NCBI RefSeq assembly: GCF_901933205.1
Contig: NC_044590.1
Span: 12,179,501 to 12,243,500 of the forward strand
Length of the DNA stretch: 64,000 bases
Reading direction: 5' to 3'
Origin: Camarhynchus parvulus
Taxonomy: Eukaryota; Chordata; Aves; Passeriformes; Thraupidae
A program made the position numbers and the translations under genes. Below, piece after piece: positions 5,899 through 62,991 of this stretch. The notes below the pieces were generated by a model. That model was given only the letters and a program-made list of their open reading frames with translations, did not search any database and was not told the origin of the DNA. Each line of letters begins with the position of its first letter. Within the stretch, counting starts at the first letter, position 1.

Positions 5899-6138
5899 AT
5901 CCAGGAGATGGTGCACTCGGACGCCGCGTCCTACGAGTCCAACCGCCAAGTGCCGCTGCTCAACCGGCCCGGCATGCTGGGCGGCCCCATGGGCGCCCTC
6001 AGCCAGTCCCAGCTCATCTCCCAGATGGGCATCCGGAGCAGGGTCACCCACGGCTCCCCCTCACCTCCGGGAAGCAAGTCTGCCACCCCATCTCCCTCCA
6101 GCTCCACTCAGGAAGAGGAGACCGAGTCGCATTACAAG
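5899..6138 (+). CDS. TOX2: TOX2 internal coding exon A (pre-HMG region)
   Basis: This exon encodes 80 residues of TOX2, a nuclear HMG-box transcription factor of the TOX subfamily. It begins IQEMVHSD after the acceptor tccctcag and ends ESHYK before the donor gtacgc. Visible blocks are LLNRPGMLGGPMGALSQSQL, the invariant SQMGIRS motif, and a Ser/Pro-rich stretch (SPSPPGSKSATPSPSSSTQEEE), a low-complexity linker of the kind that precedes the nuclear localisation signal in this family. The exon is 240 bp with phase 0 at both ends. It is CpG-rich compared with its flanks. The first ATG inside it (5908) is not a start: the reading frame is open to the acceptor, and family knowledge places further N-terminal exons upstream, outside the window. 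TOX2 rather than TOX or TOX3 is inferred mainly from the C-terminus encoded at 28217-36398. Confidence 0.95.
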
Positions 6139-10479: not shown

Positions 10480-11013
10480 TGTGGTGTTTGTGAGGGTCCC
10501 CAGGACGAGGGAAGAGATGAATCTGACTCCATGTTCTCAGAAGGCTGATTATATTATATTATATTATATTATATTATATTATATTATATTATATTATATT
10601 ATATTATATTATATTATATTATATTATATTATATTATATTATATTATATTATATTATATTATATTATATTATATTATATTATATTATATTATTCTATCAT
10701 ATTATATTATGCTATACTAAAACTATGCCAAAGAAAAAGGATACATCAGAAGGCTTCACAAGAATGATAAAAAACCCATGACTGACTCAGAGTCCATCAC
10801 AGCTGACCATGACTGACCATTAATTAAAAACAATTCACATGGAACCAACCAAACATTCACCTGTTGGTAAACCATGTCCAAGCCACATTCCAAAGCAGCA
10901 AACACAGGAGCAGCAATCAGATAATTATTGTTTTCATTGCTCTCTGAGGCTTCTCATCTTCCCAGGAGAAAATCCTGGGCAAAGAGGATTTTTCAGAAAA
11001 TGTCATGGTGACA
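10480..11013 (-). repeat. Solo LTR, 6-bp target-site duplication, internal ATATT expansion
   Basis: Element runs tgtggtgttt...ggtgaca, flanked by the direct repeat cccaga at 10474-10479 and 11014-11019. It shares body blocks (gactccatgttctcagaaggc, accattaatta, gaggcttctc) with nine or more other LTRs in the window. A 6-bp duplication is typical of class II (betaretrovirus-like) elements. The complemented poly(A) site seen in sister copies has been replaced by about 145 bp of ATATT repeats. Confidence 0.9.
10549..10691. repeat. (ATATT)n pentanucleotide array inside the LTR
   Basis: About 28 nearly perfect units. Sister LTRs at the same place have only a short AT-rich stretch around the poly(A) signal, so the array grew within the LTR. 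ORFs through it (repeated Tyr-Ile-Ile-Leu) are not genes. Confidence 0.95.
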
Positions 11014-11983: not shown

Positions 11984-12211
11984 GCTACTGGAGAGAAAAG
12001 ACCCTCAACAGACCTGGGCAAAAAGCCCAAAAGCCAAAAGAAGAAGAAGAAGAAGGACCCCAATGAGCCCCAGAAGCCCGTGTCAGCCTATGCCCTGTTT
12101 TTCAGAGACACACAAGCAGCCATCAAAGGGCAAAACCCCAACGCCACCTTCGGGGACGTGTCGAAAATCGTGGCATCCATGTGGGACAGCCTGGGAGAAG
12201 AGCAAAAGCAA
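11984..12211 (+). CDS. TOX2: TOX2 internal coding exon B (NLS and first part of HMG box)
   Basis: Encodes 76 residues, from ATGEKRP after the acceptor tgcag to EEQKQ before gtgagt. It contains the lysine-rich nuclear localisation segment ([12 protein letters not shown]) directly followed by the start of the single HMG box: [20 protein letters not shown], then [20 protein letters not shown] and SMWDSLG. HMG boxes of this family bend DNA in a structure-dependent way. This exon supplies helices 1 and 2. Phase 0 on both sides, 228 bp. The very high conservation of this region across the TOX family makes the family call certain. Upstream ORF extension to 11813 is intron. Confidence 0.98.
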
Positions 12212-23622: not shown

Positions 23623-23703
23623 GCATACAAGAGGAAAACAGAAGCTGCCAAGAAGGAGTACCTGAAAGCCCTGGCTGCATACAGGGCCAGCCTCGTCTCC
23701 AAG
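23623..23703 (+). CDS. TOX2: TOX2 internal coding exon C (end of HMG box)
   Basis: 27 residues: [20 protein letters not shown] then RASLVSK, between the acceptor tccttccag and the donor gtacag. This is helix 3 of the HMG box, completing the box begun in exon B. 81 bp, phase 0 both sides, so skipping it would keep the frame while deleting helix 3 of the DNA-binding domain. An LTR with its primer binding site starts about 200 bp downstream. Confidence 0.98.
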
Positions 23704-26022: not shown

Positions 26023-26430
26023 AGCTCTGCCGACCAGGGGGAGACGAAAAGCACCCAGAGCAACCCCCCATCCAAGATGATCCCTCCCAAGCAGCCCATG
26101 TACCCCATGCCTCCTCAGGCATCCTCTCCCTACCCTGGCCTGGGCTCCTTCCTGTCCCCATCCGAGCTGCAGAGCTACCGTGGGCACCCTCACGCGGGGC
26201 TGTCCCGCACGCTGCCCTCCAAGCCCCTGCTGCCCAGCATCAGTGCCTCCCCTCCACCCTCCTTCCAGATCAGCCCCCCGCTCCACCAGCAGCTGTCCTT
26301 GCACCACCCGCAGAGCTCGCTCCTGCCCCAGCCCCTCAGCATGCAGCAGGTCCCCCAGCAGCCCCTCCTGTCCCCCCCCATGGCACTACAGGTACAGCCC
26401 CCCATCAACGCCTCGCCGCCCGGCCAGCAG
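26023..26430 (+). CDS. TOX2: TOX2 internal coding exon D (Pro/Gln-rich C-terminal region)
   Basis: 136 residues from SSADQGETKSTQSNPPSK after acceptor ccccacag to INASPPGQQ before donor gtcagt. Rich in Pro, Ser, Gln and Leu, with blocks MIPPKQPMYPMPPQ, SPYPGLGSFLSPSEL, FQISPPLHQQLSLHH and MALQVQPP. These match the known layout of the TOX2 C-terminal region, thought to be activating and disordered. 408 bp, phase 0 both sides. The true frame is the one with ATG at 26077. The longer ORF from 25710 in another frame crosses an LTR and is spurious. A CR1 element begins only about 20 bp after the donor. Confidence 0.97.
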
Positions 26431-28216: not shown

Positions 28217-28347
28217 GACTTCTCCCATATTTCGTCTGAGTTTCAGAACAGTGTTGGACCCCGTTCTCCTGGTGCATCAAACCCCCCAGGAAGCACTGAG
28301 TGGGACAGCGACTACCCCAGCAGGGAGTGTGGGGTCAACCACTGCAG
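28217..28347 (+). CDS. TOX2: TOX2 penultimate visible coding exon E, ending at a GC donor
   Basis: Encodes DFSHISSEFQNSVGPRSP, then GASNPPGSTEWDSDYPS and RECGVNHC plus two bases of a split Ser codon, after acceptor ccctgcag. The end resembles the TOX2 block Trp-Asp-Ser-x-Tyr-Pro-Ser-x-Glu-Cys-Gly. For the frame to join the last exon at 36362, the exon must end at CAG with donor gccagt, a GC-AG intron. The GT four bases further (28352) would shift the frame. Without splicing, the frame stays open for 17 more codons to a TGA at 28397-28399. Confidence 0.9.
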
Positions 28348-35027: not shown

Positions 35028-35031
35028 ATAT

Positions 35032-35459
35032 TGATGCCCTGGAGAGGCTACCTAGAACAGAGGCTAGGCAGAGTTAAAGGAATAAAGTAGGTATTTATTG
35101 AAAGCCTTCAATGGATATGCGTTAGGCAGTGCAAGAGCCTGGCAGAGGCTACACCCAAGATAGATAAAAGTCACGAGTTTTTCAGATATAAGTTTGGTCT
35201 AATTGCATATCACGGGTTAATTTTCCAATTACAGCTTCAGGTAATGAAGTCACATTCCCCCGGTTTGCTCCTCCCCAATTCACTTTTGTTTATACTTTTT
35301 GGGCCTGAGGCTGCAATGATGCCCTTGGTTCCCATCTGGAAAAGGATTGTTCTGTCTGACCAAAATGTGAAGAGAGCTTACTGACACTCTGTGTGGAGTT
35401 CAGAGTTAGACACTAATGCAGGATCTGGAAAAGAGAAAAGCTAAAACCTTAAGGCATCG
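35032..35459 (-). repeat. Solo LTR with 4-bp duplication, adjacent to last exon
   Basis: Runs tgatgccctgg...aaggcatcg, flanked by atat at 35028-35031 and 35460-35463. Homologous to the LTRs at 53962 and 62531, which share the TGATGCC/GGCATCA inverted ends. A 4-bp duplication fits class I (gammaretrovirus-like) elements. The right 124 bp (from 35336) is also the left part of each long unit in the following array. Confidence 0.85.
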
Positions 35460-35580
35460 ATATGAAAGAATAAAAATGAAAACGGCATCACCCTGAAAGA
35501 CACGGGGTGGCACAAACGGTGTGCCAGCTGTGCCAGCTGTGCCTTCCCTGCTGTCTCACTGCCTCTGCTCTCTCTTACAG

Positions 35581-35653
35581 CATGCTGCCAGGGGACAAGA
35601 CACTCTGGAAAAGGATTGTTCTGTCTGACCAAAATGTGAAGAGAGCTTACTGA
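35581..35653 (+). other. TOX2: Decoy terminal exon 1 (duplicate acceptor)
   Basis: Preceded by the intact acceptor ctctcttacag. If joined to exon E it would encode Ser-Met-Leu-Pro-Gly-Asp-Lys-Thr-Leu, then Trp and fifteen further residues of LTR-derived sequence before TGA at 35651-35653. Compared with the true exon, Arg is Gly and Ala is Thr. Use in mRNA is unknown. Confidence 0.6.
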
Positions 35654-35857
35654 CACACTACATGGAGTGTCACTACAGTTATACACTAGTGCAGTACAGG
35701 GTCTGGGAAATAGAAAAGCTAAAAACTTAAGGCATCGATATGAAAGAATGAAAATGAAAACGGCATCACCCTGAAAGCCGCAGGGTGGCACAAACAGTGT
35801 GCCAACTGTCCAGCTGTGCCTTTCCTGCTGTCTCACCGCCTCTGCTCTCTCTTACAG

Positions 35858-35900
35858 CATGCTGCCAAGGGACAAGGCACTCTACAAGGAGTGTCACTAG
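35858..35900 (+). other. TOX2: Decoy terminal exon 2 (duplicate acceptor)
   Basis: Intact acceptor. Would encode Ser-MLPRDKALY as in the true exon, then Lys-Glu-Cys-His and TAG at 35898-35900, losing only the final Leu-Thr. Closest in product to the normal end. Confidence 0.6.
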
Positions 35901-36082
35901 AGTTATACACTAGCGCAGTACAGGGTCTAGAAAATATAAAAGCTAAAAACTTAAGGCATCATTATGAAAGAATAAAAATGAAAATGGCATCACCCTGAAA
36001 GACACGGGGTGGCACAAACAATGTGCCAGCTGTGCCAGCTGTGCCTTCCCTGCTGTCTCACCGCCTCTGCTCTCTCTTACAG

Positions 36083-36155
36083 CATGCTGCCAGGGGACAA
36101 GACACTCTGGAAAAGGATTGTTCTGTCTGACCAAAATGTGAAGAGAGCTTACTGA
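36083..36155 (+). other. TOX2: Decoy terminal exon 3 (duplicate acceptor)
   Basis: Identical to decoy 1 over the coding part, with TGA at 36153-36155. Acceptor intact. Confidence 0.6.
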
Positions 36156-36361
36156 CACACTACATGGAGTGTCACTACAGTTATACACTAGTGCAGTACA
36201 GGGTCTGGGAAATAGAAAAGCTAAAAACTTAAGGCATCAATATGAAAGAATGAAAATGAAAACGGCATCACCCTGAAAGCCGCAGGGTGGCACAAGCACA
36301 GTGTGCCAACTGTCCAGCTGTGCCTTCCCTGCTGTCTCACCGCCTCTGCTCTCTCTTACAG

Positions 36362-36398
36362 CATGCTGCCAAGGGACAAGGCACTCTACCTCACCTAA
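36362..36398 (+). CDS. TOX2: TOX2 terminal coding exon F and stop
   Basis: Completes a split Ser codon (AG+C) and encodes MLPRDKALYLT followed by TAA at 36396-36398. The Arg-Asp-Lys-x-Leu-Tyr-Leu-Thr end is the family's conserved C-terminus, and the Cys-Ser-x-Leu-Pro lead-in is that of TOX2. Only 12 coding codons including the stop, with 37 coding bases in the exon. It is the fourth acceptor of the tandem array and the only one that preserves the conserved end. Confidence 0.93.
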
Positions 36399-37565
36399 GG
36401 CTCAGCACCCTTTGGAGGAGGCTCACAAGAAGGACACTTGAGAGGGTCAATGCTCCAGCCCCCGGGAGGCACGAGAGGGTCGGATGGGCGGCGCGGCTCC
36501 ACCGCACCTCGGCGCTGGCTTCGTTTCCAGGCTCTAAGAGCAGTTTTCTTTTTTTTTTTTTTCCCTTTTCTTTTTGAACTCTAAAAAAAAAAGAATAAGT
36601 CTACTTTCTGTGGAAGTTTCCCCCTTCCCCACCCCCAAAAAAAAAAAAAAATACCCCACCTCATAAATTGCAAAGAACAAAAAAAGAAATAAAGAGAGAA
36701 AATTCAAATAAAAATAATAAAACAAGCGCAAAACCAACAAAAAAATGATGAAGTTAAACTAAGGACACCGTTTTTCTGCTTGCCATCAGCTTAGCTATGG
36801 ACTATTTTCCTAGTGAACTGCTTTTAGACGCAGCATAAACCCAGGTCTGGTGTCCTGCAGCATTAGGCCAGCTCAGTAGGAGGATGCACTCTTTTGACTT
36901 GCTAACAGCACTAAACTTTGTGCAAGAAAATGTGAAGTTTGTGTGAATATTGTACATGCAAAGGCCTTGGACGGTCTGGCGAAAAAAAAAATTACAAAAA
37001 TAAATAAAAACTATTGCTAGGTAGGTGGGGGAGAGAGCAGAAGGCAAACTATGAGAGGACAAATGTGAAAGAGATCATGAAAATATAATTTGTTGGATAG
37101 TTGTAAGTAGTTTACTAAGTGTTTTAGAGCTGTGCTAAAGACATCTTTAAGATTTTTTTGTGAAAGAAATTAGTAGTTTACTTTATAGTAAAAGCATTTT
37201 ATATTAATTGTAGCACATTTTTTAGTTATACATAGAAGGGAGATGTGTATAAAAAAACAACAAAAAAAGCCTGCCAAACTTGTTTCTATTATTTGTACAG
37301 CAAAAATGGACAATTTATATCCATGTTGTATGGCATTATTATTTTTTTCCGGCCATATGTCCATCTATTTAAAAAATTGCTGACAATGATTTTTGTCTAT
37401 TTATGAAAAATTAGAGAGCATAATTACAGTTTCTCATAAGGTGCATTTTTGGGGTTTTTTTTATTTTTTATTTTGTTTGAGGGCGCTGCTTTGGCAGCAC
37501 CTGGCACATTCGGTTCACAATGCTTATCTTACCTTTCTTTATAATAAAACATATGAAAAGTAGAG
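36399..37565 (+). other. TOX2: TOX2 3' untranslated region
   Basis: Continuous repeat-free sequence after the stop. It starts GC-rich, then has long pyrimidine and A runs (36542-36600, 36638-36652), and becomes AT-rich with ATTTA-type motifs (for example ctatttatg near 37400). Candidate proximal signals AATAAA lie at 36688, 36707, 36999 and 37003. The likely main signal is at 37543, giving a 3' UTR of about 1.15 kb. Ending is inferred, not observed. Confidence 0.7.
37543..37548 (+). terminator. TOX2: Poly(A) signal AATAAA, probable distal TOX2 end
   Basis: AATAAA in tttataataaaacat, the last such signal before repeats begin at 37791. Cleavage would fall around 37560-37570. Confidence 0.6.
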
Positions 37566-46678: not shown

Positions 46679-47267
46679 TGTCACCACAGGCCCCCAGCTG
46701 GGTAATAATTAGCATTGAGTCCATGATTGCAGAAGGCTGATCAATTGTGATATTATATTATATTATATTATATTATATTATATTATATTATATTATATTA
46801 TATTATATTATATTATATTATATTATATTATATTATATTATATTATATTATATTATATTATATTATATTATATTATATTATATTATATTATGCTGTACAT
46901 ACACTATACATACATATATTGTTATATACTATATGTTATACTATTATAATAGTATAGTTATTATACTATTATAATATATGTTATACTACTATATCATTAA
47001 GAAACTCATCCCGTTACAGATAGGCCAATTCACACATGGATCCAATTGGTCCTTGAAATCCAAACACTATCACCATTGGCCAATTAAGAAATCACCCTTT
47101 GGTAAACAATTCCCCATAACACATTCCACATGTGCACAACACCAGGTGCAGCAAGTGGAAATTAAGAATTGTTTCTCATTCTTTTCTCTGATTTTCTCAC
47201 AGCCTTCCCCGGGGCAATGCCTGGGGAAGTTGTGTTTTCTCTCTGTGGCCAGAGAGCTGCTGCCACA
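46679..47267 (-). repeat. Solo LTR with perfect 6-bp duplication and ATATT expansion
   Basis: Runs tgtcaccacaggcc...gctgccaca, flanked by ggttta at 46673-46678 and 47268-47273. Shares agtccatgattgcagaaggc and aacaccaggtgcagcaagt-type blocks with the 6-bp family. More diverged than the others. Confidence 0.85.
46750..46891. repeat. (TATTA)n pentanucleotide array inside the LTR
   Basis: About 28 units at the same LTR position as the array at 10549. Confidence 0.95.
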
Positions 47268-49871: not shown

Positions 49872-50406
49872 TATTGGTGATATTTTAGCCTGGGAGGAAT
49901 GATGCATCTGACTCCACTGATACCAAAAGGCTAATTAATTCCTTTATTCCATTAGATATTATATTATATTATATTATATTATATTTATTATATTATATTA
50001 TGTGATGTTGTATTATATTATATTATATTATATTATATTATATTATATTATATTATATTATATTATATTATATTATATTATATTATATTATATTATATTA
50101 TATTATATTATATTATATTATATTATATTATATTATATTATATTATATTATATTATATTATAATATCTAAACTGAATCTGCACAAGCACCCAGCTCAACT
50201 GCCCAGAATCTTGTGAATGCCTGCTGACCCACAGTCTGCACACACTGGGCCCTGACAGGCCAAGGAAACAAAACCCATCACTGTGGGTAAACAATCTCCA
50301 CATTGCATTCTGCTGTGGCACAACACAGGAGCAGCAAATGAGATAAGAATTGTTTTGATCATTCTCTTCTCTGCTTCTCTCAGGTTCAGAGGATGTGAAT
50401 CCCACA
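49872..50406 (-). repeat. Solo LTR, tattg-start subfamily, with ATATT expansion
   Basis: Runs tattggtgat...gaatcccaca. Flanks atgggt (49866-49871) and atgggg (50407-50412) agree at five of six. Shares ggtaaacaatctcc and cacaacacaggagcagcaaatg with 18232 and 21965. Keeps a complemented AATAAA (ctttatt) just outside the array. Confidence 0.83.
49956..50163. repeat. (TATTA)n pentanucleotide array, interrupted
   Basis: About 200 bp, broken once at 49981-50010 by tgtgatgttg-type sequence. Third independent expansion in this LTR family. Confidence 0.95.
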
Positions 50407-53961: not shown

Positions 53962-54448
53962 TGATGCCTCAGGTTTTAGCTTTTCTATTTTCCAGATTCT
54001 GTTTAGTGTGTAATTCTGAGCTTCATATGAGGGGATGGTGAGCTCTGTGCACAGAGCAGGGAGACAAAACAATTCCTGCTCCAGCTGGGCACCAAGGACA
54101 AATGATCCAAATCTCAGGCCCAAGAGCACAAACACCGTGGGCTGGAGAGAGAAAAACAAGCAGGGTGGGACTGCCTGGGCTAAAGCTGGAATTGGACAAT
54201 GAACTGCAAGATGCAAATGGAGCAGAACTGATCCAAGGGAGAGACCCTGTGCCCGGTCGTGCATTTTGGGGCCATTTTGGTTCATCTTGGGTTCATTTTG
54301 GGACCATTTTGGTTCATCTTGGGTGCAGCCCTGGCTGGGCTCTTGTGCTGCCCAAGGTGGATCCATTGAGGAGATCCTTTTAATAAATCCCTGCTTTATT
54401 CTTTAGCTCTGTCCAGGTCTGTTCTAGGGCAGCCCTCACAAGGCATCA
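53962..54448 (+). repeat. Solo LTR with perfect 4-bp duplication
   Basis: Runs tgatgcctcagg...acaaggcatca, flanked by aacc at 53958-53961 and 54449-54452. AATAAA at about 54382 followed by a short U5-like end. Complement of 62531-62991; related to the LTR beside the last TOX2 exon. Confidence 0.9.
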
Positions 54449-60965: not shown

Positions 60966-60999
60966 CTCCCTGGAGCCTCCTTTCCTTGAGGCTTTCCCA

Positions 61000-61432
61000 G
61001 CAGCAGAGCAGCAGCAGAGCAGCCGCAGCAGTGCAGAAGAGCAGCAGTGCAGCAGCAGCGGTGCAGCAGCAGTGCAGCAGCAGCAGTGCAGAAGAGCAGC
61101 AGCAGTAGTGCAGAAGAGCAACCACTCAGCAGCAGTGCAGCAGCAGTGCAGCAGATCAGCAGTGCAGCAGTGGCCATGCAGCAGTGCAGCAGCAGCGGTG
61201 CAGCAGCAGAGCATAAGAGCAGTAGCAGAACAGCAGCAGTGCAGCAGCAGCACAGAAGCAGTGCAGAAGAGCAGCAGTGCAGCAGTGGCCATGCAGCAGT
61301 GCAGCAGCAGCACAGAAGCAGTGCAGAAGAGCAGCAGTGCAGCAGCAGCAGTGCAGAAGAGCAGCAGCAGCAGTGCAGAAGAGCAGAAGAGCAGCAGTGC
61401 AGCAGCAGCAGCGCAGCCGTGCAGCAGCAGAT
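61000..61432. repeat. CAG/CTG-rich degenerate minisatellite
   Basis: About 430 bp built from agcagcagtgcag and agaagagcagcagtgcag units in varying order. It creates long open frames on both strands (320 and 381 codons) made of Ala/Cys/Leu or Ser/Gln/Ala runs, which are by-products. Confidence 0.92.
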
Positions 61433-62530: not shown

Positions 62531-62991
62531 TGATGCCTTGGGAAGGCTGACCTAGAGCAGAGACCTGGACAGAGTTAAAGAATAAAGCAGGGATTTATTA
62601 AAAGGATCTCCTCAATGGATCCACCTTGGGCAGCACCAGAGCCCAGCCAGGGCTGCACCCAACATGAACCAAAATGGTCCCAAAATGCACGGCCGGGCAC
62701 GGGGTCTCTCCCTTGGATCAGTTCTGCTCCATTTGCATCTTGCAGTTCATTGTCCCATTCCAGCTTTAGCCCAGGCAGTCCCATCCTGCTTGTTTTTCTC
62801 TCTCCAGCCCACGGTGTTTGTGCTCTTGGGCTGAGATTTGGATCATTTGTCCTTGGTGCCCAGCTGGAGCAGGAATTGTTTTGTCTCCCTGCTCTGTGCA
62901 CAGAGCTCACCATCCCCTCATTTGAAGCTCAGAATTACACACTAAAGCAGCACAGAATGTGAAAAATAGAAAAGCTAAACCTGAGGCATGA
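62531..62991 (-). repeat. LTR of the 4-bp-duplication family
   Basis: Runs tgatgccttggg...ctgaggcatga, the complement of 53962-54448 with close identity (gtgcccagctggagcagg, cacagagctcaccatcccctc). No convincing flanking duplication (ccac versus caca). Confidence 0.8.

Follow-up and report, generated by a model that had tools for sequence, protein, structure and literature searches.

Alternative 3' splice sites have been surveyed in internal exons, where, according to the excerpts of that survey cited here, upstream sites are favoured overall; this preference is significantly lower when exon definition applies and the sites are nearly equal in strength (664 events), and the conclusion drawn is that exon definition favours the sites that are closest across the exon (PMC9225289). 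These excerpts deal with internal exons and contain no match to "terminal" or "last exon". Tandem repeats at human exon-intron boundaries also alter splicing, and the part of that report cited here includes seven out-of-frame coding repeats, all of them in the last coding exon and possibly exempt from nonsense-mediated decay (NMD) (PMC2812944). In the OGT gene, splicing decoy exons provide additional 3' splice sites within a long intron; as described in the cited sections, they have 5' splice sites of their own, may have weak donors and act via intron retention (PMC12017769).

The arrangement considered here is found at the end of TOX2 in a 64-kb window (i.e., the whole stretch of DNA that was analysed) and consists of a single terminal exon preceded by four acceptors that do not differ between -20 and +10, i.e., a case outside the internal-exon survey as excerpted (PMC9225289). 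It resembles the first-step alternative 3' sites of that survey in that every site comes with a pyrimidine tract and a branch-point-like motif of its own, but differs from the excerpted cases because the sites are four in number, identical by descent and located at a terminal rather than an internal exon. The array shares with the human tandem repeats its position at an exon-intron boundary; those repeats, however, are in the cited part minisatellite expansions in segmental duplications that give rise to novel introns or repeats, whereas in TOX2 the acceptor itself is multiplied together with a piece of a long terminal repeat (LTR) (PMC2812944). Additional 3' splice sites within a long intron are common to the array and the OGT decoy exons as excerpted, but no strong 5' site was found in the array (PMC12017769). 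A first-pass annotation of this DNA knew of no described transcription factor whose conserved end depends on skipping three equal-looking decoys. This claim of novelty was too strong, because splicing changes caused by boundary tandem repeats and frame-shifted last-exon tails derived from repeats were already known, even from the part of the earlier report used here (PMC2812944). No account of such an array or its equal was found among the top-ranked matches of the literature searched, where most subscription journals were outside reach; the nearest precedent was the report on human tandem repeats (PMC2812944). Splice-site sequence is multiplied also in intron gain by tandem genomic duplication, but that model reportedly requires AGGT inside the exon, and at all four acceptors of the array CAG is followed by CAT. 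The array is an unusual arrangement with a known kind of origin.

Four identical acceptors at the end of TOX2

The exons at 5899-6138, 11984-12211, 23623-23703, 26023-26430 and 28217-28347 are joined in a single frame, and the predicted peptide with the acceptor-4 tail is 94% identical to Apus apus TOX2 over its 374 residues. The gene had already been named TOX2, an assignment borne out by the HMG box present in this peptide, by its ...RDKxLYLT end and by the best matches, which are to TOX2 among the matches listed (the best 120 of 1679 in the protein search); the match in a search of solved structures covers the HMG box part of the protein only. The relatives referred to below are 125 cluster representatives at 90% identity among the matches listed, such that isoforms may be hidden. 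The YLT end is found in 79 of these 125, from sharks to birds, and, as had been proposed, only the acceptor at 36362 reads into this family C-terminus, with a tail (SMLPRDKALYLT) common to relatives down to sharks. Residues in common with Pomatorhinus and Malurus point to a probable oscine passerine as the source. The C-terminal domain varies among TOX family members (PMC11519604), and the C-terminal region of TOX is well conserved across vertebrates (PMC12311638), as stated in the TOX passages of these two papers, in which no role is given for the LYLT end.

The last intron is 8 kb long and starts with a GC donor, i.e., the penultimate exon ends with ...CACTGCAG followed by GCCAGT. The position of this donor, after 28347, agrees with the first-pass annotation, to which its type is now added. 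GC donors are enriched in alternatively spliced genes, according to the portion of the source cited (PMC2490688). Read-through tails starting with CRPVD or CRPVH are found in 11/125 retrieved relatives (other birds, a lizard and platypus), which implies, at the level of the protein, similar donor bases in these species.

Table 1. Features at the end of TOX2 (positions in the window).
Feature	Position	Strand	Remarks
Penultimate coding exon of TOX2	28217..28347	+	frame and flanks, protein match; GC donor CAG/GCCAGT follows
Left target-site repeat ATAT	35028..35031	.	flanks
Solo LTR, last intron	35032..35459	.	family copies, ends, repeats
Right target-site repeat ATAT	35460..35463	.	flanks
Old intron 3' end before acceptor 1, about 117 nt	35464..35580	+	whole only in the four units
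Unit U1	35335..35603	+	ends at junction type 1, exon 23 nt
Unit U2	35604..35885	+	ends at junction type 2, exon 28 nt
Unit U3	35886..36105	+	LTR part shorter; ends at junction type 1
Unit U4	36106..36389	+	continues into true exon
Acceptor 1 frame	35581..35653	+	predicted tail MLPGDKTLWKRIVLSDQNVKRAY, stop
Acceptor 2 frame	35858..35900	+	predicted tail MLPRDKALYKECH, stop
Acceptor 3 frame	36083..36155	+	predicted tail MLPGDKTLWKRIVLSDQNVKRAY, stop; same as acceptor 1
Acceptor 4 frame	36362..36398	+	MLPRDKALYLT, stop; conserved TOX2 end; direct reading and relatives
AATAAA, possible early poly(A) signal	35971..35976	+	between acceptors 2 and 3
First AATAAA cluster	36688..36721	+	in single-copy 3'UTR

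The fourfold arrangement at the end of the gene is confirmed. The 21-mer CTCTCTTACAGCATGCTGCCA is found in four copies with no mismatches on the + strand of the window and was absent from 100 shuffles of the window; in a scan of the species' own genome (1.05 Gb, 1343 contigs), in which the window lies at C20:12179501-12243500, the exact 21-mer was confined to the four array copies. This exact search agrees with the annotated exon starts at 35581, 35858, 36083 and 36362, which are separated by 277, 225 and 279 nt. All four acceptors are identical from -20 to +3, an identity that the 21-mer extends to +10, and each copy has a branch-point-like CTCAC at the same distance, with the A at -23. As in first-step alternative 3' splice sites, the competing AGs are separated by 20 nt or more, and a tract and a branch-point-like motif accompany each of them. 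The exon part copied in each unit is 23 or 28 nt, i.e., not the whole exon, as would be seen in mutually exclusive exons. Rfam, at gathering scores, gave no matches in the window.

Direct reading from the first three acceptors gives the predicted tails listed in Table 1. The two at 35581 and 36083 are the same, as had been noted for these LTR-fused ends, and within MLPGDKTLWKRIVLSDQNVKRAY the LTR piece encodes WKRIVLSDQNVKRAY. The tail from 35858 had been described as losing only Leu-Thr, but in the reading LT is replaced by KECH. Protein searches for the acceptor-1 and acceptor-2 tails gave 12 and 25 proteins (90% cluster representatives), respectively, and a decoy tail was present in none of them.

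GT sites were scored with a donor matrix, which gave 3.8, 5.1, 0.1 and 4.6 for the four GT donors of TOX2 and -0.2 for the best GT within the array, AATGTGAAG at 35636 and 36138. These weak donors suggest that all four acceptors should start one and the same terminal exon. Because the decoy stops would then sit in the terminal exon, exon-junction NMD should not remove the mRNAs. Use of the AATGTGAAG GT from acceptor 1 would yield a 55-nt exon and shift the frame of the next tail; such a cassette exon is considered unlikely given the score of -0.2, yet one real donor scores only 0.1. The AATAAA at 35971 is kept in U1 and U3 and is replaced by AATGAA in U2 and U4; it could define a short last exon for acceptors 1 and 2. 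The 3'UTR (36385-36700), into which only the last acceptor reads directly, has, when compared with the genome, one full match, plus one 34-nt match elsewhere.

Predicted use of the four acceptors

We consider it somewhat probable (roughly 0.55) that the four tandem copies of the last 3' splice site, likely made by microhomology-mediated duplications with their left ends in a solo LTR, compete with one another to start a single terminal exon. Acceptor 4, which is closest to the poly(A) signals of the 3'UTR, would likely still be used to give the conserved tail, and acceptors 1-3 would likely give rise to minor mRNAs with tails ending in WKRIVLSDQNVKRAY or KECH. Our best guess from the sequence would be mixed acceptor use with the last site retained. 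Behind acceptors 1 and 3 the conserved coding part differs by two amino acids, whereas behind acceptor 4 it is unchanged, a difference that argues mildly for continued use of the latter.

For equal acceptors in a row, models of splice-site choice diverge, i.e., they predict use of the site nearest to the donor or of that nearest to the far exon end. The first place of the decoys along the transcript does not settle the choice, because upstream preference is, in the excerpted survey, significantly reduced between long introns (PMC9225289) and the TOX2 intron is 8 kb. Should the decoys be in use, TOX2, a conserved regulator of immunity and development, would have acquired new C-termini from an LTR and tandem duplication while keeping the old one. 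Taken further, and only tentatively, four equal 3' splice sites, naturally arrayed before one terminal exon, might split the TOX2 output between conserved and LTR-encoded C-termini. They would then form a lineage-specific isoform switch that could be tuned through the number of copies and whose components are a retroviral LTR, the end of an intron and the start of an exon.

It is also possible, if doubtful, that the upstream three acceptors are silent, such that terminal-exon recognition, with enhancers beyond the duplicated 28 nt, leaves 36362 as the sole productive site and the array as neutral debris. This outcome would be expected from the rule of exon-side proximity for long introns, but it conflicts with the overall preference for upstream 3' sites, both taken from the same excerpts (PMC9225289). 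The conserved coding end is retained behind acceptors 2 and 4 only, and an annotated decoy tail is found in 0/125 relatives among the matches listed (90% clusters), both of which are consistent with silent decoys; the acceptor cores of these decoys, on the other hand, are still identical.

A quite improbable role for the array would be mainly to delay splicing of the 8-kb intron and thereby increase the amount of read-through mRNA with the tail CRPVDK..., as is seen for OGT, where in the cited sections decoy sites promote intron retention (PMC12017769). The GC donor of the last intron and the read-through tails annotated in 11 of the 125 relatives among the matches listed fit this scheme, but the decoys of the OGT type, as described there, own 5' splice sites, whereas those of the array are weak, and the species with read-through tails are not known to carry the array.

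Given that upstream sites are preferred overall among the alternative 3' sites of the excerpted survey, the first acceptor might win, in which case the species would be losing the conserved TOX2 end (PMC9225289). This outcome is very improbable in view of the coding end behind acceptor 4, which is intact roughly 10-23 My after the first split at the general rates used below. Mixed use of the acceptors is the reading retained here.

Origin and age of the array

The element at 35032-35459 (428 bp) is present in at least 39 other genomic places (42 matches listed; 40 of 2010 candidates scored), the other three of the 42 being the element itself and two array units. A solo LTR is characterised by TG...CA ends, target-site repeats, family copies and the absence of an internal part; here the copy in U1 ends with CG and that in U4 with CA. 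Its identification as a solo LTR is based on ATAT on both sides and on 4-bp repeats at 2/3 fetched family copies (GGGA and CCAT; the third is without a clean one). Target-site repeats of 4 bp presumably point to ERV1-type elements. When 35403-35580 was compared with the genome, 16 matches were obtained, of which the four that cover the old intron are the four units and the other 12 reach the LTR end only.

Two further observations concern this LTR family. The tract 35272-35431 agrees at 158/160 positions with a copy about 765 kb off (C20:11449471-11449890), and further upstream the agreement between these two copies is 31/39 to 38/40 per 40-bp step; perhaps gene conversion occurred between them. 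Elsewhere in the window, the same family is found at 53963-54448 (-) and 62531-62662 (+), which are about 77% alike where aligned (54316-54448, 62531-62662), with a 54-nt match at 53963-54016.

Each unit of the array is composed of the 3' part of the LTR, the old intron end and the first 23 or 28 nt of the exon. At junction type 1 (35603/35604 and 36105/36106), ...GACAC is joined to TCTGGAAAAGG and TCT is common to exon and LTR; at junction type 2 (35885/35886), ...CACTCTAC is joined to AAGGAGTG, with an exon/LTR overlap of 4-6 nt, according to which LTR copy is used for comparison. The microhomology of 3 and 4-6 nt suggests microhomology-mediated tandem duplication, in which duplications with their left ends inside the solo LTR would have built the array.

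U1 and U3 agree with each other against U2 and U4 at 5/9 variable upstream-intron columns and at both variable exon columns, a pattern that probably reflects the doubling of a two-unit block. Exon positions 11 and 20 distinguish acceptors 1 and 3 from 2 and 4. A single doubling as the full account is contradicted by the divergences: U2 and U4 differ at 2/282 compared bases (0.7%) and a 2-nt indel, whereas U1 and U3 differ at 5/144 positions outside the LTR part and at 13/67 (19%) inside it. This inequality points to a likely later exchange. U1 and U2 differ at 10/143 positions, and for pairs other than U2-U4 the divergence is 3.5-7% outside the LTR part and higher within it. At substitution rates of 1.5-3.5e-9 per site and year, the rough age of the U1-U2 split would be 10-23 My and that of the U2-U4 split 1-2.4 My. 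The acceptor cores have 2/50 variable columns and the intron part before them 9/70, i.e., in these four units their conservation is not significantly higher (p 0.12) and gives no significant sign of selection for use of the decoys.

The closeness of U2 and U4 is what an assembly artefact would produce, but such an origin is extremely unlikely, because divergence between copies ranges from 0.7% (U2-U4) to 19% (U1-U3, within the LTR part), all other pairs diverge beyond U2-U4, there are two distinct junction types, and no second contig holds the pattern in the own-genome scan.

The window also contains other repeats. AT-rich arrays of 5-bp units (ATTAT or ATATT), with about 28 to 42 copies each, are found at 10548-10710, 46750-46891 and 49956-50166, and an imperfect tandem array of more than 400 bp, rich in CAG/GCAGCA, is located at 60998-61431.
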